From Clostridiales bacterium (lineage in GTDB: Bacteria > Bacillota > Clostridia > Christensenellales > Aristaeellaceae), in assembly GCA_012523405.1 (NCBI GenBank), contig JAAYIN010000077.1:1-58802 (forward strand): DNA of 58,802 bases, given 5' to 3'. Positions 28,285 to 57,408 of the stretch are shown here, piece by piece (the stretch's first letter is position 1; each line of letters begins with the position of its first letter). The notes under the pieces were generated by a model, which did not search any database, had not been told where the DNA came from, and saw only the letters and a list, made by a program, of their open reading frames with translations. The position numbers and the translations under genes are program-made.

Positions 28285-28298
28285 CGTTCTTGATCTCC

Positions 28299-28760: not shown

Positions 28761-28803
28761 AGTGATGCCTCATTTCTTTCAAATCAAACTTGCCTTGCAA
28801 TGA

Positions 28804-30366: not shown

Positions 30367-30382
30367 TGGAGATTCCTCGTTT

Positions 30383-31510: not shown

Positions 31511-31523
31511 CCACCTACCTTCC

Positions 31524-33302: not shown

Positions 33303-33378
33303 TGACCGTGCCTCCTGTTACAAGCAATATTGAGTGCAAGCCGCAGTTTGTTAGAACCACGGCTTGCACATCATGAGA

Positions 33379-39849: not shown

Positions 39850-39898
39850 CAAAAATTCACCTGCGAATCAAGTAATTCACAGGTGAATTTTGTTGTAT
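39850..39898 (+). terminator. Terminator between convergent SdpI-like and glycosidase-like genes
   Basis: CAAAAATTCACCTG (39850-39863) pairs with CAGGTGAATTTTG (39880-39892), followed by TTGT. Suitable A/T flanks for use on both strands. Confidence 0.75.
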
Positions 39899-39937: not shown

Positions 39938-41908
39938 CTACTTGAGCACTACCGCGGCATACAGCTCCAAATGTTCCACCGTCACAAGCGTGGATTCTCC
40001 CTTTATCTCCATATGGACTGCATTTCCATTGAGGCTGGTGATCTGCGCGGCGGCGAACGGGACTTCGATCACGACCTTCGCCATTGGGATCGGCTCTTCA
40101 ATCGTCGTGCCGTTAAAGCCTGACAAGTTCACGAGCTGCAATAGCGTGCCCTCGCCGCAGTCATCCAAAAACATCTCCACGCTTGGATGCGCATCGGTCT
40201 TGAGCGCGCGCGCCTTGGGGACGAAGTGGTCGATGGCATCGATGAGCAGCTGCTTGTGGTCTTGGAAGCCATGCTGATAGTAGAAATAGCCAAGCTGCCA
40301 CGGGATCACGAGCGTTTGCTGTGCCTCGCTGTAATACATGCAGCCCTTGTCCGTGATGGCAGAGCCATAGGCACGCTCGGCAGGGCCGAAGGTTCCCTTG
40401 CTCATATAGGGCAAAATGGCGCGGTAGGTCGGTGCATCCGCAAAGCCAATTGCGCCGCAGAGGCAAACCCAGTCCTTATCAGCAAACGAGCGAAAGATAT
40501 CCTTCTCTTGGGTATACATATATGCGCCCGCGTTGTCCGCCTCGGTCTGGGTGATTTGCAGCGCAAGCTCGCCCGCGATACCCTCGGGGAGAGGCGCATC
40601 GGCCGCGAGCACAAACAGCGGGATATTCGCCTTATGCACCGCTGCCACTGCCTCAGCCGATATGGTTTTGACATCGGGGACAATGACGAGCTGGTAGGGC
40701 GACAGGGTTTGGGGATGCTTGGCGGTATGCTCATCCAGCAGAATATCAAAGATGATATGCGCTTCCTTCAGCGCCTTAAACACACCTAGCATGTCCTTGT
40801 TGTTGTCGTGAATCGGGCTTGCGGATGCGCTTCGCATGATCGCAACGCGTGCTTTGGAGACCATGCTGCGATAATAGCGCTCGTTTTCCTCATGATAGTG
40901 GAAAACCTTTTGGGCACGCCTCAGGCTCGCGCGATCGGGATAGTCGGCAAAAATGCCGTTGATGCAAAAGTCCACACAGCCACCGCTCGCCATGTCCTCA
41001 TAGAGGCGGATTTCCGTCAAATTAGGCGAAACGCCCGCATAGCGCCAGCGCAAATCCGTCGCGTTGATCACGCAATTCGCCATCAGCTGATCAGGCCAGC
41101 TGTGCCGCGCGGACATCACATTGAGCGAGGCGCTCATCAATGGGAAGGGATACGCCCTGCCAATGCCTGTGTTTGACTCGTTGCGAATCATATCCACCTG
41201 ATCCACGCTATACGTGCACACGCAAAGACCCGGGTAATGCTGCTTGGTGAATGTGCAGATATTGGCCAGTGCGCCCGCAACGCTCCCGCGCTGGAACTCT
41301 TTATAGGCGGCATGTGCAGGCTCTGAGCTGTCCTCGGTATCGGGCAGTTCCATACCGTATTGCTCTTTGAATTTCTTTTGGCAGCAATCGCAGTGGCAGA
41401 CGCCATAGTTATTGCCATAGTAATCCCAGCCTGAGAAGCCAAAGGCGTTGAAGAATATGCCGTCCATGGACGGATAACGCTCGAGCGCTTCCCGAATGAT
41501 TTCCAGCGAGTATTCCTGCTGATACCAGCCGCTGATGCAGGTCGTCACCGTGTCCTCGCACCGCAAAATGCGGCCGTCCAGCGAGCGGTAATACCAATCC
41601 TTGTGCTCCTCATAAAACTTTTCATGAGTGCGCCCAAAGTCAAAGCGTCCGATTACACGGATGCCCTCCTTGTGGCATTTTTCCATGATCTCCTCGATCA
41701 GATCGCGCCCCTGCGGCAAATACGGGCTTTCGCATTGGAATTCCAGACCCGTTGGGAAAAAGGATGTAATCCCGCCCACACCGATCATCGCCACATTGCA
41801 GCCAAACTCCTTGAGCGTTTTGATCCAGTCATCCACATCCATGGCCGCGTCGATGTCGCGCATGTTATTTTGAATCATTCGAATCGGGTTTTCTTGCCAC
41901 CAAGCCAT
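39938..41908 (-). CDS. GHL6-like TIM-barrel glycoside-hydrolase-like protein (paralogue 1)
   Basis: The 656-residue cytoplasmic protein has a TIM-barrel N-terminal half (GVGGITSFFPTGLEFQCESP, EKCHKEGIRVIGRFDFGRTH, DGIFFNAFGF) with a Cys-rich VCHCDCCQKKFKE after the barrel strand, as in the hypothetical glycosidase family GHL6 and GH42-like enzymes. A Rossmann-like domain follows (about 390-540, LVIVPDVKTISAEAVAAVHK), comparable to the beta-galactosidase trimerisation domain, and a beta-sandwich. No signal peptide. It is the last gene of the cluster B minus arm and paralogous to 44298-46271. Likely a cytoplasmic glycoside hydrolase, substrate unknown. Confidence 0.75.
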   Translation of the reverse strand: MAWWQENPIRMIQNNMRDIDAAMDVDDWIKTLKEFGCNVAMIGVGGITSFFPTGLEFQCESPYLPQGRDLIEEIMEKCHKEGIRVIGRFDFGRTHEKFYEEHKDWYYRSLDGRILRCEDTVTTCISGWYQQEYSLEIIREALERYPSMDGIFFNAFGFSGWDYYGNNYGVCHCDCCQKKFKEQYGMELPDTEDSSEPAHAAYKEFQRGSVAGALANICTFTKQHYPGLCVCTYSVDQVDMIRNESNTGIGRAYPFPLMSASLNVMSARHSWPDQLMANCVINATDLRWRYAGVSPNLTEIRLYEDMASGGCVDFCINGIFADYPDRASLRRAQKVFHYHEENERYYRSMVSKARVAIMRSASASPIHDNNKDMLGVFKALKEAHIIFDILLDEHTAKHPQTLSPYQLVIVPDVKTISAEAVAAVHKANIPLFVLAADAPLPEGIAGELALQITQTEADNAGAYMYTQEKDIFRSFADKDWVCLCGAIGFADAPTYRAILPYMSKGTFGPAERAYGSAITDKGCMYYSEAQQTLVIPWQLGYFYYQHGFQDHKQLLIDAIDHFVPKARALKTDAHPSVEMFLDDCGEGTLLQLVNLSGFNGTTIEEPIPMAKVVIEVPFAAAQITSLNGNAVHMEIKGESTLVTVEHLELYAAVVLK

Positions 41909-41949
41909 TGAAAATAACCTCCCTTAGTGCTTTTGAAAGCCTTAGATGA

Positions 41950-43137
41950 TTAATGGGTAAAGGAATACGTCAGCTGCGCAATGCCCTTTTCCTCGTCGGT
42001 AGGGATCACCTGTACGGTAACGCCCGATGCCGCATCGGAAATAATGCCCTCGCCGCGCAATGCGTCGTTCTTTTCGCTGTCAAGCTTCACGCTCAGCACG
42101 CCCAGCTTGTCGCATACACCCTTTCGCACCACCGATGAATTCTCGCCGATCCCGCCCGTGAACACCAGCGTATCCAGACCGCCCATCTCCACGTAAAAGC
42201 TTCCGATATAGCGCACGATGCCATCGATGAATACATCCAGCGCCAGCTGTGCGCGCTCGTTGCCTTGAGCTGCGGCTTCCTCCACATATCGCAGGTCTCC
42301 GCTGATGCCCGATATGCCCAGCATGCCGCCCTTGTCGTGGATGCCCGCATCGATTTCCTCGTCCGATACACCAATCGCTTTGAGATACGGCGCAACCTCG
42401 CAATCCAAGTCGCCCGTGCGGTTTGCGTGCAGCAGTCCCGTTTGCAGCGACATGCCGAAGCTCGTGTCGATGCTATGCCCGTCCACCACCGCGCATACCG
42501 ATGACGAGCCGCCCAGATGGCAGGTGATCGCCTTGTAATGCGCGCCCCTCTGCTTTTCCAAGCAGGAAGCGATATAGCTGTTTGACGCGCTGTGATAGCC
42601 CAAGCGCTGCACGCCGTAGTTTTCGTACCATTCATAGGGCACGCCGTACAATCGGCGGCATAGCGGGATTTGGCGGTGAAAGGATGTTTCGAATACGCCT
42701 AGGAACAGGCTGCTTGGCAGCTGCTCACGCATGCAGGCAATGGTATCCAGATACGCCCTATTGTGCAGCGGCGCAATGGGCAGCCATTCCCTCATCCCTT
42801 CCAGCACATCCTCCGTGAGTTCATGGACATCCATATGCCCTTTGGATACCGTCGCCTTATACCCCACGCGGTCGATTTCGCCCACCGCGCCCAGCACGCC
42901 ATGTGCAAAGTCCGTGAGGTTTTGCAGGAAAAGGGCGATACCCGTCTTGTAGTCAGGGATTGACAGCTTCTCTGCCTGTACTTTCTTTGCGCTTACTTCA
43001 TTGACATATTCAAATAACGCGTCATCCAGACTGCCTACCCGCTCTAGCTTTGCGCGTGCCAATACGGTTCCCTTTGGCATGTCGTACAGTTTGAACTTGA
43101 GCGAGGTGCTTCCTGCGTTACATACGAGAATTTTCAT
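41950..43137 (-). CDS. Divergent acetate-kinase-family (acyl phosphate) kinase
   Basis: The protein has the ASKHA-fold acetate kinase layout: N7-x-x-S10-x-S12 in ILVCNAGSTSLKFKL, H125 in IAPLHNRAYL, H182 in GYHSASNSYI, the adenosine Arg region HANRTGDLDCEV, GIGENSSVVR and IPTDEEKGIA. It is 395 residues, as expected. Two active-site signatures are changed: the acetate-binding HRVVHGG loop reads YKATVSK (Arg to Lys94), and the FDTAFH Asp is Glu150 (FETSFH). A different acyl substrate or lower activity is likely. Start ATG 43137, with GGAGGG upstream; it overlaps the glycerate kinase gene by 20 bp. It may make ATP from an acyl phosphate formed by the FdrA/YlbE pair. Confidence 0.85.
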   Translation of the reverse strand: MKILVCNAGSTSLKFKLYDMPKGTVLARAKLERVGSLDDALFEYVNEVSAKKVQAEKLSIPDYKTGIALFLQNLTDFAHGVLGAVGEIDRVGYKATVSKGHMDVHELTEDVLEGMREWLPIAPLHNRAYLDTIACMREQLPSSLFLGVFETSFHRQIPLCRRLYGVPYEWYENYGVQRLGYHSASNSYIASCLEKQRGAHYKAITCHLGGSSSVCAVVDGHSIDTSFGMSLQTGLLHANRTGDLDCEVAPYLKAIGVSDEEIDAGIHDKGGMLGISGISGDLRYVEEAAAQGNERAQLALDVFIDGIVRYIGSFYVEMGGLDTLVFTGGIGENSSVVRKGVCDKLGVLSVKLDSEKNDALRGEGIISDAASGVTVQVIPTDEEKGIAQLTYSFTH

Positions 43138-44293
43138 TTGTTTCCCTCCTGTTTGCGCCTCCGGCAGCGACAATTGTGCGCGCCAATGCTTCGGAGGTCT
43201 GTTTGAGCAGCGCCTCTACATGCGCCACTGAGAATGCATAGGTCATGGGCTTATCTGCGATGCAGTACACCCCGTCGATCCCATGCTCATATACCGCTTC
43301 CGCGCCCGCGCCGATGCAGCCCACCAATGCGGTCACGAGCGGGCAGCCCTGCGCCTTCGCCCGCTGAGCCACCCCGACAGGCACTTTGCCGTACACGGTC
43401 TGTGCGTCCAGCTTGCCTTCGCCCGTCACGACCCAGTCCGCGTCCTTTGCCTGCGCGTCAAAGCCCAGCATATCCAATATCAAATGAATGCCGCCATGGA
43501 ACTTCGCGGGCAGCAATGCCAGCATGCCGCCGCCAAGTCCGCCTGCTGCACCTGCGCCAGGGGCGTCTTTCATATCCGTGCCCGTCTGCTCCGCAAGCTT
43601 TATCGCCCAGTTTGCCAAGCCCTGATCCAGCTGCTTTACCTGCTGGGGGCTAGCGCCCTTTTGAGGTCCGAATACGGCGGATGCGCCGATATCCCCGCAT
43701 AGCGGATTGCATACATCGCTCGCCAATAGGAAGCGGCAGTCCTTGAGGCGCGGGTCGAGGTTGGTAAGATCAACGGTATGAAGATCCCGCAGCGCACCTC
43801 CGCCAAAGGCGAGCTCCTTGCCCGCCTTGTCCCGAAGGGACGCGCCTAGCGCCTGTGCCATACCTGCGCCGCCGTCGTTGGTCGCCGAGCCGCCAAGCCC
43901 CATGATGATGGTCGTGCAGCCTTGATCCAGCGCGGAGAGAATCATCTCGCCCACGCCATACGTCGTTGTGTTCATCGCATCTAGCTTTTGGGTGGGGATG
44001 AGCAATATGCCCGAGGCGGCGCTCATTTCTATGACCGCCGCTCGATCCTTTGTGATGGCATAAACAGCCTCCGCCAAGTCGCCCAGCGGACCTGTGACAC
44101 GGCATGCGCGGCGCTCCGCGCCTTCAAGCCCTGCCAGCACCGCGTCCACCGTGCCTTCCCCGCCGTCAGCGACCGGCAGATTGACTGTTTTTGCCTGAGG
44201 GAAAGCCTTCAAAATGCCCGCACATACGGCCTCTCCTGCCTTCTGTGCACTGCAGCTCCCCTTGAATGAGTCCATGGAAACCAATACTTTCAT
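43118..44293 (-). CDS. Glycerate kinase (GarK/GlxK family)
   Basis: Class II-type glycerate 2-kinase with the conserved start VLVSMDSFKGSCSAQKAGEA, PVADGGEGTVDAVLAG, IEMSAASGI, the GLGGSATNDGGAGMAQALGA nucleotide loop and GAGAAGGLGGGMLALLPAK. It phosphorylates D-glycerate to 2-phosphoglycerate with ATP. 391 residues is normal. Start ATG 44293, with GGAAGGATGAGC upstream; the longer frame overlaps the preceding gene. Its partner in the tartronate-semialdehyde route is probably the reductase at 56453-57337. Confidence 0.93.
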   Translation of the reverse strand: MKVLVSMDSFKGSCSAQKAGEAVCAGILKAFPQAKTVNLPVADGGEGTVDAVLAGLEGAERRACRVTGPLGDLAEAVYAITKDRAAVIEMSAASGILLIPTQKLDAMNTTTYGVGEMILSALDQGCTTIIMGLGGSATNDGGAGMAQALGASLRDKAGKELAFGGGALRDLHTVDLTNLDPRLKDCRFLLASDVCNPLCGDIGASAVFGPQKGASPQQVKQLDQGLANWAIKLAEQTGTDMKDAPGAGAAGGLGGGMLALLPAKFHGGIHLILDMLGFDAQAKDADWVVTGEGKLDAQTVYGKVPVGVAQRAKAQGCPLVTALVGCIGAGAEAVYEHGIDGVYCIADKPMTYAFSVAHVEALLKQTSEALARTIVAAGGANRRETNENSRM

Positions 44294-44297
44294 ATGC

Positions 44298-46271
44298 TCA
44301 TCCTTCCGTGGCCTGAGGCGATTCATCAATCAGTATGGCTGCGTAATCGGTCAGCAGCGGCAATGTGATGGTGATGGTATCGCCATTGCGCACAATCGGC
44401 AGCGTCTCTCCGCTGCGCAGTTCCGTCGCTGACTTTGCCGCTAGGGCAGGGACGGTCACGTGGATTTCGCTGATGGGCAGGGGCTGAAATACGCTGCGCC
44501 CGTTATACCCCGTCAGGTTGACAAATTGAATCATACGCGCGTTTTCGCGTCCGTCATAGAATATCTCCACCATATCGGGCGCGTTGGTCACCAGCTGACG
44601 CTTCCCAAGTATATGGTCAATGAGGTCCAGTATGATGTCCCGATGCTCCAAGAATCCGTTCTTGAAATACAACCGCCCTGCTTCCCACGAGATCAGCGCA
44701 TTGCATCCGCTTTCCGTCTCCTTGAGTGCGCCTGTGCAATAGTCCGTGGGGCAGCCGTAATTGCTGATCTCCACAGGACCGTGAATGCCCGGCGCTACAT
44801 AGGGCAGGAGGGGATGCTCTGCCTTGAGCAAACCAGCCGTCCCGTTGATCAATATCAGGCGGCGGTTGGGCACGCGCCCAAACATCGCCTCATCCTCGCA
44901 GCGGATATAGGCGCCGCGGTTTTGAGTTGCGATTTTCTCCAGCTTGGCGCCAAATAGACGCTCCAGCGCTTCGGGGTCATTGCCAAACGCGCCGCCCGTT
45001 GCCAATACCGCGGTTCCTTTGGGGATCAGCGCTGCATCGACATGGCTTCCCGGGAAGATCATCAAGCGGTATGGATGCGCGCTCTTGCCGACATGGGGCT
45101 CGGTGATCTCGTCAAACTCGTAATGCCCTTCCTTGAGCATCTGAAACAGCCCGCGATATTCATCCGCCGATCCGTCTTCCTTAAAGAAGGCGATATCGGG
45201 GCGCACAAGCGCGATATCTGCCAAGGATTCCCGCACGCCCATGAGCGATTCGTGCTGCTCGTGAAAGCTGAATACATCGCGCACGCCCGCTTCATTGCAG
45301 TCCTCTGGATAATCCCTAGGCGTTCCGACGATGCACCATTCAGGCTGACCGCCCGATGCCAAGTTTTGCCACAGGCGCAGCTTGTTAAGCGCTGGCGATA
45401 CGCCCATGAAACGCCAGAAGATATCCGCTGCGTTGATCACGCAGTTTGCGCTGCGGGCTGTTGCATTGTTATCGTTTGTCAGGCGGCAGTTATCGGACGA
45501 GGAATAGAGCCAGTAGGGCAGCGCCCGACCCAGCGCGTAGTTTGATTCGGTATGGGTCATGTTCACATAGTCGCCCGTATCGTGGGTGCATATGGAGATA
45601 TCGGGGGAAATCTCCTTCACAGCGGAGGTCACGCGCTCCATGATGGCTTTGATGACCTCATCTTGGAACGCACGATAAGCCGCTATCGCAGGGTCATGCT
45701 CGTCCTTTGGCAGCTCAAGCCCCGTACGCTCCCCAAAGAGCCTTCGGCAGTTATCGCATTGACAGATGCCGTGCTCCACCCCGTCATAATCAAAGGTCGT
45801 GAAGCCGAACATATTGATGTACAGACCGTCCACAGGGTATTTGCCAAGGCATTCCCGCAGCATCGCAATCGCGTGCTCCTGCTGATATTCCCCGCAGATA
45901 CAGGCATGCACCATCCCGTGGTAATTCACGATCTCGCCTTGATCGCTTAGATAGAGCCAATCGGGGTGATCAAGCGCGATTGATTCATGCACCTTGCTGA
46001 AATCAAAGCGCGTGATGACGCGGATATTCGCCTGATGGCATTTCTCAATCACATCGCCCAGCATATCGCCGTCCCCAAGGTAGGGGCTGACATAGGCGAA
46101 GGGAAGTTGGCTGGGATAGTACGAGACAATGCCGCCCGCGCCGATCATAACCGTGTTTGCATGCATGCCCGCCAAGTACTCAACCAGTTCATCTGTATTC
46201 ACAGCCGCGTCATTTTGACGCAGGTTAAATTGCACCATGCGCATTTTGTTTTCCATCCACCATCCACCCAT
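44298..46271 (-). CDS. GHL6-like TIM-barrel glycoside-hydrolase-like protein (paralogue 2)
   Basis: The 657-residue paralogue of the protein at 39938-41908 has the same order of motifs: MIGAGGIVSYYPSQLPF, EKCHQANIRVITRFDFSKVH, DGLYINMFGF, ICQCDNCRRLFGE and ACICGEYQQEH. A Rossmann-like domain (RLMIFPGSHVDAALIPKGTA) and a C-terminal beta domain (VEIFYDGRENARMIQFVNLT) follow. The two copies flank the two kinase genes in the operon, which suggests they act on related substrates or form a mixed complex. GAAGGAGG lies 8 bp before the ATG. Probably a cytoplasmic glycosidase; substrate unknown. Confidence 0.75.
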   Translation of the reverse strand: MGGWWMENKMRMVQFNLRQNDAAVNTDELVEYLAGMHANTVMIGAGGIVSYYPSQLPFAYVSPYLGDGDMLGDVIEKCHQANIRVITRFDFSKVHESIALDHPDWLYLSDQGEIVNYHGMVHACICGEYQQEHAIAMLRECLGKYPVDGLYINMFGFTTFDYDGVEHGICQCDNCRRLFGERTGLELPKDEHDPAIAAYRAFQDEVIKAIMERVTSAVKEISPDISICTHDTGDYVNMTHTESNYALGRALPYWLYSSSDNCRLTNDNNATARSANCVINAADIFWRFMGVSPALNKLRLWQNLASGGQPEWCIVGTPRDYPEDCNEAGVRDVFSFHEQHESLMGVRESLADIALVRPDIAFFKEDGSADEYRGLFQMLKEGHYEFDEITEPHVGKSAHPYRLMIFPGSHVDAALIPKGTAVLATGGAFGNDPEALERLFGAKLEKIATQNRGAYIRCEDEAMFGRVPNRRLILINGTAGLLKAEHPLLPYVAPGIHGPVEISNYGCPTDYCTGALKETESGCNALISWEAGRLYFKNGFLEHRDIILDLIDHILGKRQLVTNAPDMVEIFYDGRENARMIQFVNLTGYNGRSVFQPLPISEIHVTVPALAAKSATELRSGETLPIVRNGDTITITLPLLTDYAAILIDESPQATEG

Positions 46272-46293
46272 GTCAGTCGCCTCCTTCTTTCTA

Positions 46294-46482
46294 CTACATT
46301 CCCATCATTTCAAGCAGCTTGAGCATCTCATCATCGCCGCCGGCCATGGGCTTCCAGTCAACCTGTATGACCTGCGCGCCCTGCTTTTGAATCGCCTCGC
46401 CAAAGGCGCTCACGCCGACATTGACAACGACCAATTCCTTCGCATCAAAAAGCTCTTGGAGCTTCTTTGTATCTGTTTTCAT
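46294..46482 (-). CDS. Small FdrA-associated protein
   Basis: The 62-residue protein overlaps the FdrA stop codon by ATGA. Its core KELVVVNVGVSAFGEAIQKQ, followed by VIQVDWKPMAGGD, resembles the short 'VNIG...F...VxHxxWxPPAGG' segment found as a terminal domain in E. coli FdrA/YlbE-region proteins and as a stand-alone small protein in Firmicutes. It is probably a structural subunit of the FdrA/YlbE complex. Its conservation of the WxPxAGG motif argues that it is a real gene despite its length. Confidence 0.72.
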   Translation of the reverse strand: MKTDTKKLQELFDAKELVVVNVGVSAFGEAIQKQGAQVIQVDWKPMAGGDDEMLKLLEMMGM

Positions 46483-49282: not shown

Positions 49283-49365
49283 TAACCCAGCTCCTCTTTC
49301 AGGCGCGACGGCGATCGGGGCAGGGTGATTGCCCATCTATCACAATCACGCATCTATTTATATTC

Positions 49366-49395
49366 AGTATAGGAGGTGGCTTAGCAAAAAGTAAA
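49366..49395 (-). promoter_or_regulatory. Probable promoter of the ylbE-fdrA operon
   Basis: TTTACT (49395-49390), an 18-bp spacer and TATACT (49371-49366) lie on the minus strand, 84 bp before the ylbE start. It may need activation by the AraC-type regulator encoded upstream. Confidence 0.5.
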
Positions 49396-49445
49396 CTCTC
49401 AGTTTTTGAGCTATGCTATGAAATTTGCAAAAATAGGCGAACAGA

Positions 49446-49481
49446 CAAAAAAGCATCATCAGTTTTTGCACTGATGATGCT
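49446..49481 (-). terminator. Terminator of the AraC-type regulator gene
   Basis: AGCATCATCAGT (49452-49463) pairs perfectly with ACTGATGATGCT (49470-49481). On the minus strand it is followed by TTTTTTG, 74 bp past the regulator stop. Confidence 0.85.
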
Positions 49482-49554
49482 AAAAAGTCCGATTTGACAG
49501 CGAAAATTGATGTAATGGGAGATTTTTACTGCAAATATGCCATATGAAGCCGCA

Positions 49555-51888
49555 TTATGTGCTGTGAATGGTTCGGTACTCGCTGGGGAGGATTCCCTCG
49601 TAGCGGCGGAAGCAGCGGGACATGGTCAGGCAGCTGATATAGCCCACCTGCGCCGCGATATCCTTGATCGTCATGCGGGGATCGTCCAAAAGGCGTTTGG
49701 CATCGTTGATGCGCAGCTTATGAATATAGTCAAGCAGACCAATACCATACGTGTGTTTGAACTGCCTTGAGATGTAGGAGATGCTGATATTGTACTCGGA
49801 CGCGATGTTGCCAATGCTGATATCGGGGGATTTGTAGTTCTTTTGCACGTATGCGAGCACGTCGTCAATGACGGTTGTGGTGGGCGTTGCGGCCTGCGCG
49901 GACATCGTCTCGATCAGGTCGAAGGTCTTGCGGGCGGTCTCCTTGAAGCTGCGGATGCTGCGCACCGAGTCCAGCGCTTCCAAATTCACCAAGAATTCAT
50001 GCGCAAACTGCGGATCGTTGATGATTCGATTGCTGCTGATGGCATGGGTGATGAGCCCCGATATGGATTTCATTTGCAGCTGGAAGCTGGACAGGTTTTG
50101 GCTGCATCCGTCCTTCACCGTATCCACAAGCTCCACGAGCGTGCGGTATGCCGCCTTGTAGTCCTCGATCAGCATTTGGTTGGTAAAGCTGGTTTTGAGC
50201 TGAATTTGCTTTTCATAGTGCAGGTCGCTATGGGGAAGCCCTGAGAGGTTCTCATAGTACAGGCAGCTATTGCTTCTGCCCGTCATCTGCGCATATTCCA
50301 AGCAGACCTTTGCGTCATGATAGGACTCGGACAGACCGCTTAGATCATCCTGCACCGAGCCGACTGAAAACGTGACCACCACGGTGAGCGAATTGCTGAT
50401 AAAATCAAAAGCTTCCTTTATACAGTTCTTTAGCGCAGGCTCGCGCAGCTCCTGCGCATGGGCATTGATGATGCACACAAAGCTTCTGGAGTTAACGGCG
50501 AACGTGCTTCTGTATTTGGGGCTGAGGCAGGACTTGAGCGTGGTCATGATCAGGTTATTGGCCGTTTGCTCCACGCGGTCGCTGTCCCTGTCATCCACCG
50601 TAAGTTCATTGCGGTCGAAATTCTCGCACGATACCAGCACCACCGCAAAGCCGCCCTCCAAGAACGGAATCCCATAGTCCTTGCAGGTTTGATACAGACC
50701 CGCCTCGCTCGCGCCCCGCTCGTTGAGAATCTTCAATATGACGTGGGAGCGGATTTCGTATTGCTTGGTGATCAGCTCAAAATTGCTGTCCTCCAAGCGG
50801 CTGACCATTTGGTTGATGTTTTCCTCGATCAGCTTATACTCGTTGGTCGGTTTATGTACCTTTGGGTCTGTGGTTTGGATGAGCTGTTTGCATATTTGCT
50901 CAATGGGGGCATACTGGCGCTTTGCGAGCAGCACCGCCAGCAATACGCTGAGCCCTACGCTGATGAAAAGGCAGCCCCAAAGCAAAATGCGCTGGGGGGT
51001 ATACAGGTCATTGAGTGCAGCCTTTGGGGTGAATGACATGTAGGAGAAGCCGTCCACATACCCAGAGGGCGTGGCTGCTACCATATAGCCGTCCGTCTCC
51101 CATGTCCCCGCCTTGCCTAGCTGGCTTACCATCGATTCCTGCTTCATCGGTATTTCTTCAACGCCAAAAAAGACCTCACCCGTTGCCTCATCCACCAAGG
51201 CAATTTCTGTTTCATTCATAAAACGAACCGTTGTGAGCAGTTCGGCGAAGTTTTTTTCATTCAGCGATATGCTGATGATTACGTTTTGACTATGATCTAG
51301 CTGAGGATAGTAGCGGCAAAAGATCATCAGATGATTTTCCCCGCTCTCATCTTGGCGTACATAATAATGATAGTTTCCTTCATGATGGAGCATGTCCTCC
51401 CATGCGTCATACCCAAAACCAAAGAGCGTTTGTCCTGCATCGGCGAAGCTGCCCTCACGGTACAAACCAAGGTCTGATATCACCATATCCTGATCGGGAT
51501 AGTATAAACAGATCGTTTCAATCAAATCATTCATGGCGAGTTGGGACATGATTTTTTTCTGTGCATGCCAGCATTGAAGCAAAAACGCGGAGGATTGCAC
51601 GTCTTTTTGCCCGCAGATGGTCATGACATCACTATCCATAAACAACCCGAGCGTCGTTTTTTGGATATGCTGCAAATTACTGTCTCCAAATTGAGCCGCT
51701 CTTCCGCCCAGATTGTCAATATCTTCCATGACATTGTCATCAAGCTTCCCAGAGAGAAAAACAGAGGCTGAAATCGTCACCGTAGCAAGGATTAAAAAGG
51801 CCAATAAATAGGTAAGGATGATGGATGCAAAAACCGACTTCTTCTCCTGCGCACCCTGCTGTTGTTCAATTTTCAATGCTTTGATCAT
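49555..51888 (-). CDS. Membrane-anchored AraC-type regulator
   Basis: The 777-residue protein is a one-component membrane regulator of the type encoded beside LplABC-like importers. It has a TM helix near residues 22-46 (IILTYLLAFLILATVTISAS), a Cache-like extracellular sensor (about 50-290), a second TM helix (ILLWGCLFISVGLSVLLAVL, about 300-322), a HAMP/coiled segment and a central domain. The C-terminal AraC DNA-binding domain (about 670-775) carries ISYISRQFKHTYGIGLLDYI and DIAAQVGYISCLTMSRCFRR as its two helix-turn-helices. It lies between the two arms of cluster B and probably activates both. A TATAAT/TTGTGA promoter lies at 51918-51945. Confidence 0.9.
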   Translation of the reverse strand: MIKALKIEQQQGAQEKKSVFASIILTYLLAFLILATVTISASVFLSGKLDDNVMEDIDNLGGRAAQFGDSNLQHIQKTTLGLFMDSDVMTICGQKDVQSSAFLLQCWHAQKKIMSQLAMNDLIETICLYYPDQDMVISDLGLYREGSFADAGQTLFGFGYDAWEDMLHHEGNYHYYVRQDESGENHLMIFCRYYPQLDHSQNVIISISLNEKNFAELLTTVRFMNETEIALVDEATGEVFFGVEEIPMKQESMVSQLGKAGTWETDGYMVAATPSGYVDGFSYMSFTPKAALNDLYTPQRILLWGCLFISVGLSVLLAVLLAKRQYAPIEQICKQLIQTTDPKVHKPTNEYKLIEENINQMVSRLEDSNFELITKQYEIRSHVILKILNERGASEAGLYQTCKDYGIPFLEGGFAVVLVSCENFDRNELTVDDRDSDRVEQTANNLIMTTLKSCLSPKYRSTFAVNSRSFVCIINAHAQELREPALKNCIKEAFDFISNSLTVVVTFSVGSVQDDLSGLSESYHDAKVCLEYAQMTGRSNSCLYYENLSGLPHSDLHYEKQIQLKTSFTNQMLIEDYKAAYRTLVELVDTVKDGCSQNLSSFQLQMKSISGLITHAISSNRIINDPQFAHEFLVNLEALDSVRSIRSFKETARKTFDLIETMSAQAATPTTTVIDDVLAYVQKNYKSPDISIGNIASEYNISISYISRQFKHTYGIGLLDYIHKLRINDAKRLLDDPRMTIKDIAAQVGYISCLTMSRCFRRYEGILPSEYRTIHST

Positions 51889-51917
51889 GTCGTATCCCTC
51901 CCATGATTCCTAAGATC

Positions 51918-51945
51918 ATTATACATCAAAGGCGAAAAATCACAA
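51918..51945 (-). promoter_or_regulatory. Promoter of the AraC-type regulator gene
   Basis: TTGTGA (51945-51940), a 16-bp spacer and TATAAT (51923-51918) lie on the minus strand, about 30 bp before the start. Confidence 0.6.
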
Positions 51946-51974
51946 GATGCACGCCTTACCCAAAACTAGGTAAC

Positions 51975-52041
51975 AGTGCAAAAACCGACGCTTCCACCAC
52001 GCTATCAGATGCACAAAACGGTCACCAGACGACGATATAAT
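51975..52041 (+). promoter_or_regulatory. Putative activated promoter of the plus arm of cluster B
   Basis: A consensus TATAAT (52036-52041) has no recognisable -35. Upstream lie two imperfect copies of a GTGCAAAAACCGACG-type sequence (about 51976-51990 and 52010-52024: TGCACAAAACGG), spaced about 34 bp. They are candidate binding sites for the AraC-type regulator. A poor -35 with direct repeats fits an activator-dependent promoter. Confidence 0.45.
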
Positions 52042-52145
52042 ACAAAAACTGATAGCACGAAAAATTGAGCTCTTTACAATTTCACCTCATTTCCTCTATC
52101 ATAAATTTAAATAACAGGCAAATGGTCACATCGCGAGTGAACCAT

Positions 52146-53162
52146 ATGCCAAGAGACAAAAAAATTCAAATTGGATGTGACTTGACCATGAAGGGAACTG
52201 TGGAATTGGCACCTCGCTACAACTTGAGAGGATCGCTGACATTTGCGGAAAAGCTCAGGAATCACTTTCGCCGTTATAAACTGCTGCATCTGATGGCGCT
52301 GCCATGCGTGATATGGCTAATCGTATTTAAGTATGCGCCTATGACGGGTTTGATCATGGCATTTAAGAACTATCGCGGCGCAGCGCAGGGATTTGCAGGT
52401 ATTTTTTCTGCCAAGTGGATCGGTTTGAAGAACTTCGAAACCTTCTTTAACTCCATCTACTTTGGAAGGCTGCTATCAAATACGCTGCTGATTAGTTTTC
52501 TTCGTTTGATCTTCGCCTTCCCCATTTCCATTATCTTTGCATTATTGCTCAACGAACTCGCTAACCCCCACTTCAAGAAGATCGTGCAAACCGTTTCCTA
52601 TATGCCCCACTTCCTATCCTGGGTCGTCATCGCAACCCTTGCCAAGACGCTCCTATCAACGGACGGCGGCGTCATCAACCAGCTCATCACCGCATTTGGC
52701 GGAAAGCCGATCTACTTTATGGCTGATGAAAAATGGTTTAGGTGGGTGCTGGTCATCACGGGCATATGGCAAAGCATGGGCTGGAGCAGCATCGTATACA
52801 TCGCTGCCATCAGCGGCTTGCCCCAAGAGCAGTACGAATCGGCAACGCTGGATGGTGCCAACAAGCTTCAGCAAATTTGGCATATCACATTGCCCGGCAT
52901 CAAGAGCATTATCGCCATCATGCTGATCATGCAGGTCGGCAGGGCGATGACGGATAATTTCGAACAGGTCTTTAACATGTACAGCCCTGCCGTATACAAG
53001 GTGGGCGACATCTTTGACACCTATGTCTACCGCGCAGGTATCACCGATGCGAACTTCTCCTACTCCACGGCCGTCGGGCTATTCAAGTCCGTGTGTTCCC
53101 TGATATTGGTATTGACTACAAACAAGATAACAAATAAGCTCGATGCGGGCGGATTATGGTAA
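52146..53162 (+). CDS. ABC transporter permease, LplB-type
   Basis: The membrane protein has six TM helices. The first runs through LMALPCVIWLIVFKYAPMTG, typical of LplB/YtcP-group permeases, followed by LIMAFKNYRGAAQG. The EAA loop is QYESATLDGANKLQQIWHIT LPGIKSII. The C-terminus DTYVYRAGITDANFSYSTAV GLFKSVCS is the family's end. The start is uncertain: ATG 52146, ATG 52188 and an ATG at 52065 are in frame and none has a strong ribosome site. It is followed immediately by the LplC-type gene. Confidence 0.9.
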   Translation: MPRDKKIQIGCDLTMKGTVELAPRYNLRGSLTFAEKLRNHFRRYKLLHLMALPCVIWLIVFKYAPMTGLIMAFKNYRGAAQGFAGIFSAKWIGLKNFETFFNSIYFGRLLSNTLLISFLRLIFAFPISIIFALLLNELANPHFKKIVQTVSYMPHFLSWVVIATLAKTLLSTDGGVINQLITAFGGKPIYFMADEKWFRWVLVITGIWQSMGWSSIVYIAAISGLPQEQYESATLDGANKLQQIWHITLPGIKSIIAIMLIMQVGRAMTDNFEQVFNMYSPAVYKVGDIFDTYVYRAGITDANFSYSTAVGLFKSVCSLILVLTTNKITNKLDAGGLW

Positions 53163-53176
53163 AGGAGGGCAAGACA

Positions 53177-54085
53177 ATGACAGCAATGGCTTCTCGCAGG
53201 AAGATATCGCTTAAGCGCACTCGCGGCGATAAGGTTTTCAACGTGATCAACATCCTACTCATGCTCCTGATTTGCTTCTTATTTCTATACCCCATCCTCT
53301 ACGTGGTAAGCCGCTCTGTGATGACCGATGCTGAGCGCGTAGCGCGCCCGCTGGCGATGCTGCCGCGGACGATTGATTGGGCTGGATACAAGATGGTATT
53401 TGCGCCTAACTCCAACATCGTCGTCACCTACTGGACCACCATCAAGCGTACATTAGTCGGCACCAGCTGCAACCTCGTCATGAGCACGCTCATGGCCTAC
53501 GTCCTCGCCAAGCGCGATTATCCGCCAAGGCTGCTGCTCACCGCGCTCCTCGTGTTCACCATGTGGTTTGACGCGGGACTCATTCCAAACTTCCTGATGA
53601 TGCAGTCCCTTGGGCTCAGCAACAACTTCTGGGTCTATATACTGCCTGCCGCCATCAGTCCATGGAACTGCATTATCTTGCGGAACTTCATCATGGCACT
53701 GCCTGCGGAGCTGGAAGAATCCGCTAAGATTGACGGCGCGAACGAAGGCAGACTGCTCATATCCATCGTGCTGCCTCTATGCAAAGCATCGCTGGCAACC
53801 GTTGGTCTATTCTACGCAGTAGGTCATTGGAACTCTTGGTTTGACTCGATGCTCTACATGACCGACCGCCACGATTGGTGCCTGCAATACGTGCTGCGCC
53901 AGATCATTTCCAGCGCTAACATGAGCGACCTGATGGAGCAGAGCGCAGACGCAACCGTCAACCCGCCCACCGAAATGGTGCGCATGGCGTGCACAGTCGC
54001 CGCTACCGTCCCCATCCTCTGCGTCTACCCCTTTCTGCAAAAATACTTCGTCAAGGGCGTATTGGTCGGCTCTGTCAAGGGCTGA
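53177..54085 (+). CDS. ABC transporter permease, LplC-type
   Basis: A six-TM permease of the LplC/YtcP group: VINILLMLLICFLFLYPILY, RTIDWAGYKMVFAPNSNIVV, DAGLIPNFLMMQSLGLSNNF and the EAA loop ELEESAKIDGANEGRLLISI VLPLCKASL. The conserved GHWNSWFDSMLYM and the end YFVKGVLVGSVKG also match. Start at ATG 53177, because AAAGGAGG lies 9 bp upstream; the longer frame to 53156 overlaps the LplB gene. It works with the LplB-type permease and the binding protein that follows. No ATPase is encoded. Confidence 0.92.
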   Translation: MTAMASRRKISLKRTRGDKVFNVINILLMLLICFLFLYPILYVVSRSVMTDAERVARPLAMLPRTIDWAGYKMVFAPNSNIVVTYWTTIKRTLVGTSCNLVMSTLMAYVLAKRDYPPRLLLTALLVFTMWFDAGLIPNFLMMQSLGLSNNFWVYILPAAISPWNCIILRNFIMALPAELEESAKIDGANEGRLLISIVLPLCKASLATVGLFYAVGHWNSWFDSMLYMTDRHDWCLQYVLRQIISSANMSDLMEQSADATVNPPTEMVRMACTVAATVPILCVYPFLQKYFVKGVLVGSVKG

Positions 54086-54134
54086 CAACCATGTATCTTA
54101 TCGCAATGCGATAAAAATAGAGAGGAGATTCATC

Positions 54135-55733
54135 ATGAAAAAGGTACTGTCCATTCTACTGGTATTGTCCCTGCTGGTTTCTCTGCCCCTCCTAACCGCG
54201 GTCGCCGCCGAGGAGCCCATCCCACTGTTCGGCACAGGCTCAAGCCCCGAGGACCCGTTGTTTGATCCCGCACTAGGCCTCACGCTCACAGTTTACACCA
54301 CCAACGGCTGGGGCGAGGATAGCAAGCCCGACAACACATTGGTCAAGGAATATATCGAAGCTCACACAGGTCTCACGCTGAACTTCGTCTATACCGCCAT
54401 AGATAACTTCGTGGAAAAAATGAACCTCGTATTCGTCTCGGGCGAGGCCTATGATGTCGTCTCGGACGGCAGTGGCTTGATCGTGGCAACCCGTCCTCTC
54501 CAGTCCCTATATGATGACGGCCTGATCATTGACCTGACCCCCTATATGGACACCTATGGCAAGAACGTCACAAAGTACTTGGGCGAAGGCTATGACTACA
54601 CCAGAGGTACAAATGGTGAGCTCCTGTCCATCGCAAAGCGCGTATCAAACAACCGCGGCAACACGCCCACCATCCGCGCTGACTGGGTCGAGCAGGCAGG
54701 TTTATCCGGACTGCCTACCACCATCAAAGAGCTAGAAACTTACTTTGAGTACGTCAAGAACAACGACTGCAACGGCAACGGTGACGCTACTGACGAAATC
54801 CCCTATCTGCCATCCAACTGGCTCAACCTAGGCAACTGCATGGAAGGTATCTTCCTAGGCAAGGACGGCATTGGTAAAAACTACTTGGGCGAGGATGGCA
54901 ATGTATACCGCGACATCAACCACCCCCTCTACATGTCCTTCCTTGATACCCTACGCTCTTGGTATGAGAAGGGCTATCTATACCCTGAATTCTTCACCGT
55001 CACCAGTTCACAGGTGAACGATCTGGTCTCAGCTGACCGCGCTGGTCTGCTCAACCAATGGTACTCCGGACAAGTTCGTCCCTTCCAAGCGGTGGAAGAA
55101 GCAGATACTACCAAGCATTATGAATTGCTGCCCAATATCGAGTCCCCCAACGAAGGCGTACAGACCACATACAGCGAAGGCACGCCTTACCAGCCAAGCG
55201 TTTTGGTATCCACCACCAGCGAGCACCCCGAAGTGGGCATTGCTTACTTTGACTGGATGCTTTCCGATCCTACCATCAACGCCAGCATTTGGAACGGCAT
55301 TGAAGGCTTGCACTGGGAATGGTTTGACGAGGAAGAGCTTACCTTCACCACATTACCCGGCGGCGAAGAGCGCTATTTCAAAGGCTTCCAGGCTGTGTGC
55401 CAATGGGATGCCAAGGATCAATTCATCTATGCAAACCCCGCTGACTATATCTCCATTAAGTATGATCATTACCTCAACATCCTCAACAGCGGCGAAACCG
55501 ATTACTACGAAGCATTCGACCTGAAGGTTCCGTATGTGAAGGTTGGCACCGATCTTGAGTTCATGAGCAATGACGCTGAAACCCTGCTTGAAGAAAGCAT
55601 CATCAGCTACATCATCGGCACCATTGACCGCGACGCCATGACCTCCGCCGTCACCGAATACAACGCTATCTACGGCGATGTCTACTCCAAGGTCTATACC
55701 GAGCAGTACAACACCTGGCTCGCAAATCGTTAA
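54135..55733 (+). CDS. Extracellular solute-binding protein, LplA-type
   Basis: The 532-residue binding protein has a Sec signal peptide (VLSILLVLSLLVSLPLLTAV, cleavage near AVAAEE) and the LplA-group pattern LTLTVYTTNGWGEDSKPDNT, RGNTPTIRADWVEQAGLSGL PTTIKEL, a D-rich Ca-like segment (NDCNGNGDATDEIPYLPSNW), and GTIDRDAMTSAVTEYN. No cysteine follows the signal peptide, so it is not a lipoprotein by sequence, although most Gram-positive binding proteins are. Substrates of this group are complex glycans or oligosaccharides such as uronides. It belongs to the cluster B importer. Confidence 0.9.
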   Translation: MKKVLSILLVLSLLVSLPLLTAVAAEEPIPLFGTGSSPEDPLFDPALGLTLTVYTTNGWGEDSKPDNTLVKEYIEAHTGLTLNFVYTAIDNFVEKMNLVFVSGEAYDVVSDGSGLIVATRPLQSLYDDGLIIDLTPYMDTYGKNVTKYLGEGYDYTRGTNGELLSIAKRVSNNRGNTPTIRADWVEQAGLSGLPTTIKELETYFEYVKNNDCNGNGDATDEIPYLPSNWLNLGNCMEGIFLGKDGIGKNYLGEDGNVYRDINHPLYMSFLDTLRSWYEKGYLYPEFFTVTSSQVNDLVSADRAGLLNQWYSGQVRPFQAVEEADTTKHYELLPNIESPNEGVQTTYSEGTPYQPSVLVSTTSEHPEVGIAYFDWMLSDPTINASIWNGIEGLHWEWFDEEELTFTTLPGGEERYFKGFQAVCQWDAKDQFIYANPADYISIKYDHYLNILNSGETDYYEAFDLKVPYVKVGTDLEFMSNDAETLLEESIISYIIGTIDRDAMTSAVTEYNAIYGDVYSKVYTEQYNTWLANR

Positions 55734-55759
55734 CTACAAACAATTGGGGAGGTTACAAC

Positions 55760-56410
55760 GTGTTTGAATGGACTATTTTGACCGTTGGGCATCTCTCCCG
55801 CAATAAGTTCTGGGGGGAAGACGAAGAGACCGCGTATCGTCTTCCTCTGGCAACTTGCATCTTACTTCGCGGCGAAGGCGAGACGATCATTATCGATCCC
55901 TCCCTTCCCGCCAAGGAGATGGCGGAAGCCCTGCTCAATAACAGCGGACTCCATTTGGAGGACGTTACGCGCGTGTACAGCACGCATTTTCACTATGATC
56001 ACCATGTGGATCTGGATTCATTTCCCAATGCACGCAAGTTTATGCCCAAGATCGATGTCGATTATCTCAAGTCCCACAGGGATGAAGTGATGGGCATGTG
56101 GACCATGCTGAGGTCTGAAAACGTTGATGTGCTTGAATATGCCGAGGATCACCTCGTAAGCGGCATGTCCATGGTGCCCATGCCCGGACATACGGCGGGT
56201 ATCTCTGCCTATGTATTTGATACCCCCGAGGGCAAAGCCATGGCGACAGGCGATGCCGTGATGACCAGAGAGTTTTATCAGCACAACGAATCGTATTTCT
56301 ATTGCTGGAATATGCAGCAAGCGATCGACAGCATTCATCATATCAAGGGCATGGCTGATTTGATCATCCCCGGTCACGGACAGCCCTTCCTTGAAAAGAC
56401 ATATGCTTGA
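55760..56410 (+). CDS. Metallo-beta-lactamase-fold hydrolase (lactonase-like)
   Basis: The 216-residue protein has the metallo-beta-lactamase signature STHFHYDHHVDL (HxHxDH), MPGHTAGISAY, the bridging Asp in MATGDAVMT and the last His in IPGHGQPF. It resembles the N-acyl-homoserine-lactonase-like subgroup, which includes lactonases and general hydrolases. It starts with GTG (55760), with GGGGAGG 7 bp upstream. Position between the binding protein and the reductase suggests opening of a sugar lactone or removal of an ester in the catabolic route. Substrate inferred only. Confidence 0.82.
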   Translation: MFEWTILTVGHLSRNKFWGEDEETAYRLPLATCILLRGEGETIIIDPSLPAKEMAEALLNNSGLHLEDVTRVYSTHFHYDHHVDLDSFPNARKFMPKIDVDYLKSHRDEVMGMWTMLRSENVDVLEYAEDHLVSGMSMVPMPGHTAGISAYVFDTPEGKAMATGDAVMTREFYQHNESYFYCWNMQQAIDSIHHIKGMADLIIPGHGQPFLEKTYA

Positions 56411-56452
56411 TCACCACTGTCACAATTTTGCTGCTTGAAAGGATGGCGTAAC

Positions 56453-57337
56453 ATGAAGATCGGAATGATCGGTTTAGGAATTATGGGAAAGCCCATGGCA
56501 AAGAATCTACTAAAGGCTGGCTATGAGCTGACCGTTTTTGATTTAAATGCCGAAACAGTAGCGGAGGTTGTCGCTTGCGGCGCGAAATCAGCACCCAGCG
56601 GTATCGCGGCCGCCGCAGGCGCAGAGCTGGTACTGACCATGCTGCCCAATAGTCCCCATGTGAAAAGCGTTATGCTCGGTGATGAAGGCGTCGGGCAGGC
56701 GATGGACAAGGGCGCTACATTCATCGACATGTCCTCCATTAATCCCATGGCGAGTCGCGAGATAGCGGCAGAGCTGGAAAAGCTTGGCGTTGAGATGCTG
56801 GATGCACCCGTTAGCGGCGGCGAACCCAAGGCGATTGATGGCACGCTCTCCTTTATGGTCGGCGGCAAGCAAGAGGTTTTTGATCGATATCACGAGGTGC
56901 TTTGCACCATGGGCAGCTCGGTTGTGCTATGCGGCGATATCGGCGCGGGCAATGTCACCAAGCTATGCAACCAGATCGTTGTAGCGGTCAATATCGCAGC
57001 GGTCAGCGAGGCGCTGATGCTGGGACAAAAGGCAGGCGTAAAGCCCGACGCGATTTATCAAGCCATTCGCGGCGGCTTGGCAGGCTCGACCGTCATGGAT
57101 GCCAAAGCGCCTATGATGATGGATCGCAATTTTAAGCCCGGCTTTCGCATTGACCTGCACATCAAGGACCTAAACAATGTGCTGGATACAGCCAAAGCCG
57201 TGGACAGCCCCATGCTGCTGACCAACCAAGTGATGGAAATGATGAAGGTACTCCACAGCGACGGCAAGGGTATCTATGACCACAGCGCCATCTGTCAGTT
57301 CTACGAGAAGCTCACCAACATGGACATCCAGCGCTGA
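56453..57337 (+). CDS. 2-hydroxy-3-oxopropionate (tartronate semialdehyde) reductase-type dehydrogenase
   Basis: The 294-residue protein belongs to the 3-hydroxyacid dehydrogenase (GarR/GlxR/MmsB) family. It has a Rossmann loop GMIGLGIMGKPMAKNLLKAG, substrate-binding DAPVSGGEPKAIDGTLSFMV GG, the catalytic Lys in GNVTKLCNQIV and LHIKDLNNVLDTAKA. GarR-type reductases convert tartronate semialdehyde to D-glycerate with NADH. The glycerate kinase in the same cluster supports this over hydroxyisobutyrate dehydrogenase. Start ATG 56453, with GAAAGGATGG upstream. Confidence 0.87.
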   Translation: MKIGMIGLGIMGKPMAKNLLKAGYELTVFDLNAETVAEVVACGAKSAPSGIAAAAGAELVLTMLPNSPHVKSVMLGDEGVGQAMDKGATFIDMSSINPMASREIAAELEKLGVEMLDAPVSGGEPKAIDGTLSFMVGGKQEVFDRYHEVLCTMGSSVVLCGDIGAGNVTKLCNQIVVAVNIAAVSEALMLGQKAGVKPDAIYQAIRGGLAGSTVMDAKAPMMMDRNFKPGFRIDLHIKDLNNVLDTAKAVDSPMLLTNQVMEMMKVLHSDGKGIYDHSAICQFYEKLTNMDIQR

Positions 57338-57369: not shown

Positions 57370-57408
57370 AAAGCAGGAATCGCCATACGCGATTCCTGCT
57401 TTTTTTGC
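57370..57408 (+). terminator. Terminator of the cluster B plus arm
   Basis: AAAGCAGGAATCGC (57370-57383) pairs perfectly with GCGATTCCTGCTTT (57389-57402), followed by a T run. Confidence 0.93.

Follow-up and report, generated by a model that had tools for sequence, protein, structure and literature searches.

The 58,802-nucleotide stretch of Clostridiales bacterium DNA analysed here (assembly GCA_012523405.1, contig JAAYIN010000077.1; its whole length is hereafter called the window) carries homologues of AllG (YlbE) and FdrA in one operon with a relative of acetate kinase. Between 49282 and 39938, seven minus-strand genes form a tight run, and the gene set named in a preliminary description of this DNA was confirmed in place. 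The first gene, allG (DUF1116; 48023..49282), encodes a protein that scores 208.9 bits against PF06545 (cut-off, 27) and is 31% identical to E. coli YlbE; its longest open reading frame (ORF) is 48023-49336(-), of which Met19 is the likely start. Four nucleotides overlap with fdrA (46479..48026, minus strand), whose product has Ligase_CoA and CoA_binding domains, is 32% identical to E. coli FdrA and reaches 377.6 bits on NCBIfam PRK06091, below the curated cut-off of 433. Another 4-nt overlap joins fdrA to the gene of a 62 aa protein (46294..46482, minus strand), which matches residues 509-554 of E. coli FdrA (BLASTP E = 3e-9) and, on this match, corresponds to the C-terminal tail of that protein, detached and encoded as its own gene; the earlier notion of a small FdrA-associated protein holds for its place in the operon and is revised as to what the protein is. 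Also, the tail stretch is fused to AllG in another locus examined in this study (L042; E = 4e-7).

The run continues on the minus strand with a GHL6 protein (44298..46271), a glycerate kinase of the GlxK family (43118..44293; TIGR00045, 434.8 bits; cut-off, 168.45), a putative acyl kinase of the acetate kinase family (41950..43137) and a second GHL6 protein (39938..41908; PF14871, 74.1 bits). For the two kinases, the longest ORFs are 43118-44329(-) and 41950-43173(-), respectively, with Met13 as the likely start in both. The putative acyl kinase has the Acetate_kinase domain (PF00871, 319.5-319.7 bits) and passes TIGR00016 (314.2 bits; cut-off, 293.4), as AckA-type enzymes would. A plus-strand run diverges from this operon and encodes two ABC permeases labelled LplB-like (52065..53162) and LplC-like (53156..54085), both with BPD_transp_1, a solute-binding protein (54135..55733; SBP_bac_1), a metallo-beta-lactamase-fold hydrolase that is possibly a lactonase (55760..56410; PF00753, 71.6 bits) and a tartronate-semialdehyde reductase (TSR; 56435..57337). 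The lactonase models AiiA and AidB scored far under their cut-offs on the hydrolase. TSR reaches 469.8 bits on PRK11559 (cut-off, 397), passes a second NCBIfam equivalog cut-off (401.3 versus 340.75) and has 1VPD as its top PDB match.

In E. coli, FdrA, YlbE and YlbF (AllFGH) constitute the oxamic transcarbamylase of the allantoin pathway and work with AllK; the genes were assigned in 2024, and AllH (YlbF) is a required third subunit (PMC11326118). The three genes had earlier been proposed as candidates for the oxalurate step (PMC3364942). The window resembles this system in its AllG and FdrA homologues, in the same FdrA tail domain and in a kinase able to draw ATP from a mixed anhydride, but it differs in that AllK is replaced with an acetate-kinase-family enzyme, allantoin genes with sugar and glycerate genes, and AllH is missing. 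Indeed, the host genome (3.56 Mb in 130 contigs, 96% complete), which holds a single AllG, gave no match to AllH/YlbF (PF11392), and the best score for carbamate kinase was 28.2 bits on TIGR00746 against a cut-off of 358.25. The window AllG and FdrA are thus without any of their E. coli partners; the claims that YlbF is absent from this operon and that carbamate kinase is replaced both stand, and no separate YlbF/carbamate kinase pair over the cut-off was found elsewhere in the genome. A second, ordinary acetate kinase was found in the host genome (513.1 bits versus about 319.5 for the window kinase), adjoined by a gene that, judged by eye, resembles phosphotransacetylase; the window kinase is therefore not the sole acetate kinase of the cell. 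Two other candidates were rejected by their scores in the host genome, namely an allantoin pathway (best allantoinase match, 232.2; cut-off, 357.85) and glyoxylate carboligase as a source of tartronate semialdehyde (best match, 501.7 bits; cut-off, 711.2).

Two architectures of kinase-linked AllG loci

AllG was present in 7 of 100 relatives and in 60 of 398 genomes sampled from the phylum. A scan of contigs with the window AllG as the lone query found no relatives; with five kinase-linked AllG aligned as the query, 259 stretches were obtained, of which 159 were relatives and the best 80 were retained. Gene maps were labelled by BLAST against the proteins of the window, of a sister locus and of E. 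coli, with 20 further canonical loci added; counts of labels are accordingly lower bounds, and the Pfam/NCBIfam names were verified for one to three representatives per partner. The loci were sorted into class A (the window, L043 with L139, and L059-L109; 53 loci), class B (L040-L042 and L110-L138; 32 loci) and canonical (31 loci, from the window's phylum sample only). Many raw loci are near-copies, some end at contig edges, and three pairs in class B are the same contigs taken twice with identical AllG (L040/L128, L041/L114 and L042/L132), which inflates the raw but not the dereplicated counts. Two loci, L133 and L138, were counted in class B in the raw counts and moved later, because they group with the canonical loci in the AllG tree. 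When AllG was dereplicated at 80% identity and flanks of 6 kb or more were required on each side, 13 loci of class A, 10 of class B and 25 canonical ones remained; L073, a class A locus with no called AllG ORF, was left out of this set.

The kinase was labelled at 42/53 loci of class A, 19/32 of class B and 0/31 canonical loci, which became 12/13, 7/10 and 0/25 upon dereplication; namely, 19 of the 23 dereplicated loci of classes A and B have it versus none of the 25 canonical ones (Fisher p = 7.7e-10, to be taken as a guide only, since the rows are still related). The survey of co-occurrence that the preliminary description proposed thus finds these genes together in many genomes. Carbamate kinase was labelled at 0/53, 1/32 and 18/31 loci of class A, class B and the canonical type, respectively (0/13, 0/10 and 16/25 dereplicated), and AllH at 1/53, 15/32 and 6/31 (1/13, 4/10 and 4/25).

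The remaining partners separate the two classes. In class A, GHL6 was labelled at 35 raw loci (none in class B or canonical loci; 11/13, 0/10 and 0/25 dereplicated), an alpha/beta hydrolase at 34 (none in the other two), TSR at 31 (one in class B and none in canonical loci), and a D-2-hydroxyacid dehydrogenase (labelled HPR, with models below the cut-off) at 27 (none in the other two); either TSR or HPR is present in 11/13, 0/10 and 1/25 dereplicated loci. Glycerate kinase is of the GckA/MOFRL type at 16 raw loci of class A, where models of glycerate 2-kinase score below the cut-off, and of the GlxK type at two; neither was labelled in class B or canonical loci, and the dereplicated counts of glycerate kinase are 7/13, 0/10 and 0/25. 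The recurrence in class A of two unrelated glycerate-kinase families and two reductase families supports a glycerate end of the predicted pathway, in agreement with the earlier proposal that one product goes to glycerate.

Class B is instead equipped with an IlvD-type dehydratase scoring below the ilvD cut-off (0, 24 and 0 raw loci of class A, class B and the canonical type; 0/13, 9/10 and 0/25 dereplicated), a FrdA/NadB-like flavoprotein (0, 25 and 0; 0/13, 10/10 and 0/25), a short-chain dehydrogenase/reductase (SDR; 1, 23 and 2 raw, and 9/10 dereplicated class B loci) and a metallo-hydrolase (0, 17 and 0 raw). A lactonase-type hydrolase is shared by both classes (9/13 and 9/10 dereplicated loci versus 0/25 canonical). 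When the 85 loci and the window were searched by tblastn for a hydrolase of the fumarylacetoacetate hydrolase (FAH) type with E. coli YcgM, matches were obtained only in L133 and L138, both of the canonical type; this was a search with one query, which a distant FAH protein could escape.

The gene set of the window is matched by that of L043/L139 (genome G040): AllG, FdrA, the tail, the kinase, TSR and the AraC-type regulator, along with two permeases, a binding protein, a metallo-hydrolase, GHL6, HPR and a second GHL6 further along. The AllG proteins of the window and L043 are 60% identical, and L059 and L043 are the nearest rows to the window in the AllG tree. A mixed locus was noticed in Herbinix sp. 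(L061, 6639-16527), which has class A genes and AllH, and of which the kinase looks partly class B-like in its substrate-side residues. Seven loci in Verrucomicrobiota and Lentisphaerota (L111, L113, L115, L116, L117, L120 and L122) have class B AllG/FdrA with no kinase label; Oligosphaera ethanolica DSM 24202 holds one of these (L116) and also a class B locus with the kinase (L134), where AllG, FdrA, the tail and AllH are all encoded.

Altered residues in the kinase, AllG and FdrA

In the AllG tree of 116 rows, which was built by a quick method and whose long branches include those of L045, L046 and E. coli, all of the 58 kinase-linked rows fall in one clade of 81 rows (SH-aLRT, 99), which is composed of class A (50 rows; support, 100) and class B (31 rows; support, 98). 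All of the 18 rows linked to carbamate kinase lie outside it, and 23 rows inside it carry no kinase label. The kinase-linked AllG of this clade are from Bacillota, Spirochaetota and Lentisphaerota, and clade AllG are additionally found in Chloroflexota and Verrucomicrobiota.

The clade is also marked by its residues. When 49 rows of class A and 30 of class B were compared with 30 canonical ones (E. coli numbering), four positions invariant in the canonical rows were found to be changed: Arg258 to Gly in all rows of both classes, Met101 to Ala in class A and Gly in class B, Asp298 to Tyr in 92% of class A, Phe in the window and Trp in class B, and Thr381 to Gly in both; these four serve here as a membership criterion of our own rather than a published one. 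Three further positions with 90-93% conservation in canonical rows are changed in both classes (Asn380 to His, Asn296 to Leu and Met315 to Ala). The changed positions may line the carbamoyl/acyl site. The structure model of AllG (pLDDT, 92.2) gave no reason to assign it to another known fold, given that only 3CLQ chains matched at E <= 0.001, and no match to phage families was obtained for AllG or the 62 aa protein. As for FdrA, its CoA-binding region resembles the alpha subunit of succinyl-CoA synthetase, but His occupies the column of the SucD phospho-histidine in only 1 of 101 FdrA rows; without this residue, the acyl-phosphate would be expected to leave the enzyme, so that a distinct kinase would be needed, as is AllK in E. 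coli (PMC11326118).

Columns of the kinase were placed through E. coli AckA, in what we take to be the numbering of M. thermophila acetate kinase, with Arg91, Asp148, Asn211 and other residues presumably having the roles assigned to them there. All of the 61 AllG-linked kinases have Lys91, Glu148, Gly211 and Ser212 in place of Arg, Asp, Asn and Gly, while Asn7, His180, His208 and Arg241 are retained. All of the 22 canonical acetate kinases have Arg, Asp, Asn and Gly at the four positions, and none has the altered set; they comprise E. coli AckA, the second copy of the host and 20 sequences picked by hand from the high-scoring end of a PF00871 list of 398 genomes, and they form one side of a branch with a support of 100.

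Among the matches listed, the PF00871 search of the 398 genomes returned only the strongest acetate kinases, and the wider clade of the window kinase was therefore sought with a DNA pattern for FET[AG]FH, which misses the FETSFH of the window itself. In the 100 relatives, the pattern occurs at 15 places in 14 genomes, including four kinases that adjoin AllG, one located just after a tail gene where a contig begins, and five non-kinases. One contig (L182:3-1410, genome G003) has the FdrA tail gene and then the kinase at its very start; given this position, AllG/FdrA was probably lost in an assembly gap rather than being absent. In the phylum sample of 398 genomes, there are 30 places in 28 genomes, 23 of them not labelled as kinases and seven being kinases with Lys91 and Glu148 in 7/7, Gly211 in six and Ser212 in five. 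A kinase with all four residues in genome G445 (L255:9135-10936) adjoins PduL (PF06130, 257.5 bits) and genes of the 2-hydroxyglutaryl-CoA-dehydratase type, with no AllG within the 19.5 kb fetched. This kinase beside PduL suggests that the clade serves acyl-phosphates elsewhere; we thus read the clade as a probable subfamily of acyl kinases for a non-acetyl phosphate, which PduL would supply in G445 and AllG/FdrA in the window. Another kinase of the same type was noted in genome G144 (L256:9386-14325) near a gene like that of altronate/galactarate dehydratase, a LarA-like gene and the gene of a 2-hydroxyacid dehydrogenase.

A proposed pathway and its alternatives

We tentatively propose, at somewhat less than an even chance, that the operon degrades an oxidised sugar derivative by phosphorolysis at AllG/FdrA, with the resulting acyl-phosphate used by the kinase for ATP and a C3 product led to glycerate. 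The importer would take up the sugar derivative, and ATP would be gained at one cleavage: AllG, FdrA and the detached tail would split an acyl donor with inorganic phosphate and release free acyl-phosphate, of which the divergent kinase would pass the phosphate to ADP. The other product would be a C3 keto or semialdehyde acid that is reduced to glycerate by TSR (or by the 2-hydroxyacid dehydrogenase in sister loci) and then phosphorylated by glycerate kinase. While we infer this order of steps along with the chemistry and the substrate, AllG/FdrA probably does form an acyl-phosphate. The preliminary description had put forward much the same core, i.e., acyl-phosphate from FdrA/YlbE, ATP from the kinase and a branch to glycerate; this fits the comparative evidence and is partly supported by it.

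The donor may possibly be a compound cleaved at a C–C bond. Oxalurate (H2N-CO-NH-CO-COO-) and 2,4-dioxo acids (R-CO-CHX-CO-COO-) are alike in shape; oxamate is a classical analogue of pyruvate, as carbamoyl phosphate is of acyl phosphates. Because of this resemblance, we propose phosphorolytic C–C cleavage of oxidised sugar acids, in which the likeliest donor would be a 1,3-dicarbonyl sugar acid, R-CO-CHX-CO-COO-. In class B, with its dehydratase, X would be H and the products pyruvate and acyl-phosphate; in class A, including the window, X would be OH and the products hydroxypyruvate or tartronate semialdehyde and acyl-phosphate. Class B indeed holds what X = H requires, namely the lactonase-type hydrolase, SDR, IlvD-type dehydratase and flavoprotein, with no FAH found, and this second architecture, which the preliminary description did not have, points to 2,4-dioxo sugar acids as candidate donors. 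In class A, the dehydratase and flavoprotein are at 0/53 loci, and glycerate reductases and kinases are present instead, as X = OH demands. This complementarity is the chief ground on which the C–C donor is preferred to carbamoyl or acyl-CoA donors. In its most specific form, in which AllG/FdrA of the clade is a phosphorolytic C–C lyase that yields, from 2,4-dioxo sugar acids, a C3 keto acid together with a hydroxyacyl-phosphate for ATP formation by the Lys91/Glu148 kinase, the proposal is rather doubtful.

A hydrolytic pathway of 2,4-diketo-3-deoxy sugar acids with FAH hydrolases is known for L-fucose, L-rhamnose and pentoses (EC 3.7.1.26; PMC13406643 and PMC6336799). Class B resembles it in the lactonase, SDR and dehydratase types and would likewise end in pyruvate and a hydroxy acid, but its dehydratase is of the IlvD type, no FAH was found in its loci, and phosphorolysis, as proposed, would keep the energy of the cleaved bond in the form of ATP.

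Several findings weigh against our proposal. Five of the 15 pattern places in the relatives are kinases in genomes without an AllG match (L181, L184, L186, L187 and L189, all in the window's family, with L186 and L187 at contig edges), and the seven kinases of the phylum sample have no AllG in the fetched stretch, three of their genomes having AllG elsewhere. Loci without the kinase amount to 11/53 in class A and 13/32 in class B, some of them cut by contig ends; even with good flanks, 1/13 and 3/10 dereplicated loci, respectively, lack it. Class B raw loci include a KDPG-aldolase-like gene (11/32) and PfkB (9/32), neither of them labelled in class A or canonical loci, by which a 2-keto-3-deoxy acid could be cleaved along the ordinary route. 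Furthermore, no class A gene was identified as making a 1,3-dicarbonyl, AllH is absent here while being needed by the E. coli enzyme (PMC11326118), and the likeness of oxalurate to the dioxo acids is an argument from general chemical knowledge.

Four other explanations compete with phosphorolytic C–C cleavage. Given that oxalurate is cut at a C–N bond and that esterase/lactonase-type neighbours recur, AllG/FdrA might cleave a C–N or C–O acyl bond in an N-acyl or ester derivative of a sugar acid, leaving the kinase and the glycerate branch unchanged; no amidase or amino-sugar gene is, however, among the labelled recurring partners, and the complementarity of classes A and B is better explained by C–C cleavage, which makes this alternative unlikely. 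AllG/FdrA might also act as a phosphotransacylase that turns acyl-CoA and phosphate into acyl-phosphate for the kinase, as in Pta-AckA or PduL-kinase pairs, in which an acetate-kinase-family enzyme makes ATP from an acyl-phosphate just as proposed for the window, where AllG/FdrA would be the supplier. The CoA_binding and Ligase_CoA domains of FdrA, its resemblance to the alpha subunit of succinyl-CoA synthetase and the pairing of the kinase clade with PduL in G445 would suit such a reaction. We nonetheless regard it as quite unlikely: the 158 unlabelled ORFs (150 aa or longer) lying up to 7 kb from AllG gave eight groups that recur in at least three loci, and none of these looked, by eye, like an enzyme that forms acyl-CoA; also, AllG would be left unexplained, and the E. 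coli homologue acts on oxalurate/carbamoyl phosphate (PMC11326118).

An enzyme that is still a transcarbamylase, phosphorolysing an oxalurate-related ureido compound with the acetate-kinase relative in place of carbamate kinase, is improbable in our view, despite the homology to AllFG. Acetate kinase can add to measured carbamate-kinase activity, the assay not distinguishing them (PMC9843812), and one class B genome (L040 = L128) has AllW/AllB/AllC-like genes adjacent on the opposite strand. The AllG positions fixed in canonical enzymes are, nonetheless, altered, the host is without AllH and has neither carbamate kinase nor allantoinase over the cut-off, the neighbours of the module are sugar-acid or glycerate genes, and a kinase of the same signature stands with PduL elsewhere. 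A mere sharing of an operon by an acetate-kinase paralogue and FdrA/AllG with no joint pathway is highly improbable; the kinase clade does exist without AllG and some clade AllG without the kinase, but the kinase is found in 19/23 versus 0/25 dereplicated loci, its signature is seen in 61/61 linked kinases, and the linkage is conserved over several phyla.

Some anaerobes appear to have recruited an allantoin-breakdown enzyme and an altered acetate kinase as a predicted ATP step in sugar operons. Among open-access papers, none was found that pairs AllG/FdrA with a kinase of the acetate-kinase type or describes a phosphorolytic cleavage of acylpyruvates. C–C phosphorolysis, if true, would be categorically new and a new mode of substrate-level phosphorylation in the fermentation of sugar acids, by which anaerobes would gain ATP from oxidised sugars where the known route with FAH hydrolases yields none. 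The known role of AllFGH concerns a single nitrogen compound; should sister clades of it use carbon compounds, the family would be a general module that forms acyl-phosphates and takes any suitable kinase as its partner. To annotate such genes as “acetate kinase” or “acyl-CoA synthetase FdrA” would then be misleading. The proposal is directly testable in O. ethanolica DSM 24202, a culture-collection strain with class B loci.

GHL6 proteins and neighbouring features

Of 35 GHL6 sequences found (33 and the two in the window), 24 were aligned and used to build an AlphaFold model (pLDDT, 88.7), which in Foldseek matched the GH151 alpha-L-fucosidase 6TVK along the three-domain fold (E = 4.8e-38; TM, 0.80; 17% identity), followed by GH42 enzymes. 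In GH151, the nucleophile is Asp154 and the acid/base Glu235 (PMC10154630). In the profile alignment, Asn153 of the window protein encoded at 44298..46271 falls on Asp183 of the 689-residue 6TVK chain, which would be Asp154 if the 29 residues by which this chain exceeds the 660-residue numbering are a tag at the N-terminus. Asn is found at this position, where GH151 has its nucleophile as strand 4 ends, in all of the 24 sequences. The aligned proteins also share an invariant Glu242 where a later strand ends; as a guess, it might be the acid/base. The preliminary description took these proteins as glycosidases, which agrees with the GH151 fold, but Asn in place of the nucleophile Asp makes plain glycosidase action doubtful. 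GHL6 would thus be a protein of the GH151 fold minus the GH151 nucleophile, with a substrate-assisted cleavage or another reaction. Fucose, which the fold suggested as the sugar, is not claimed, because a glycerate end product misfits a 6-deoxy sugar.

An AraC-type regulator (49555..51888, minus strand; HTH_18 and GGDEF_2) lies between the two operons. The three longest terminator-like hairpins mark the ends of the minus-strand operon (39852..39891, 18 pairs), of the AraC gene (49452..49481, minus strand, between this gene and allG; 12 pairs) and of the plus-strand operon (57370..57402, 14 pairs). Terminator-like sites numbered 24 versus 16.5 ± 3.8 in shuffled sequences; for promoter-like sites, the count did not exceed chance (12 versus 14.5). 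Elsewhere in the window, aspartyl-tRNA synthetase (8960-11041) has a GatC-like C-terminal stretch (20.8 bits, below the cut-off of 23), with gatA and gatB adjoining. A second importer-linked catabolic run lies at 22034-34650, including a binding protein and genes of the GATase1-like, amidohydrolase, BadF-type kinase, SIS, GH9, Amidohydro_3 and D-serine-dehydratase/alanine-racemase-like types.

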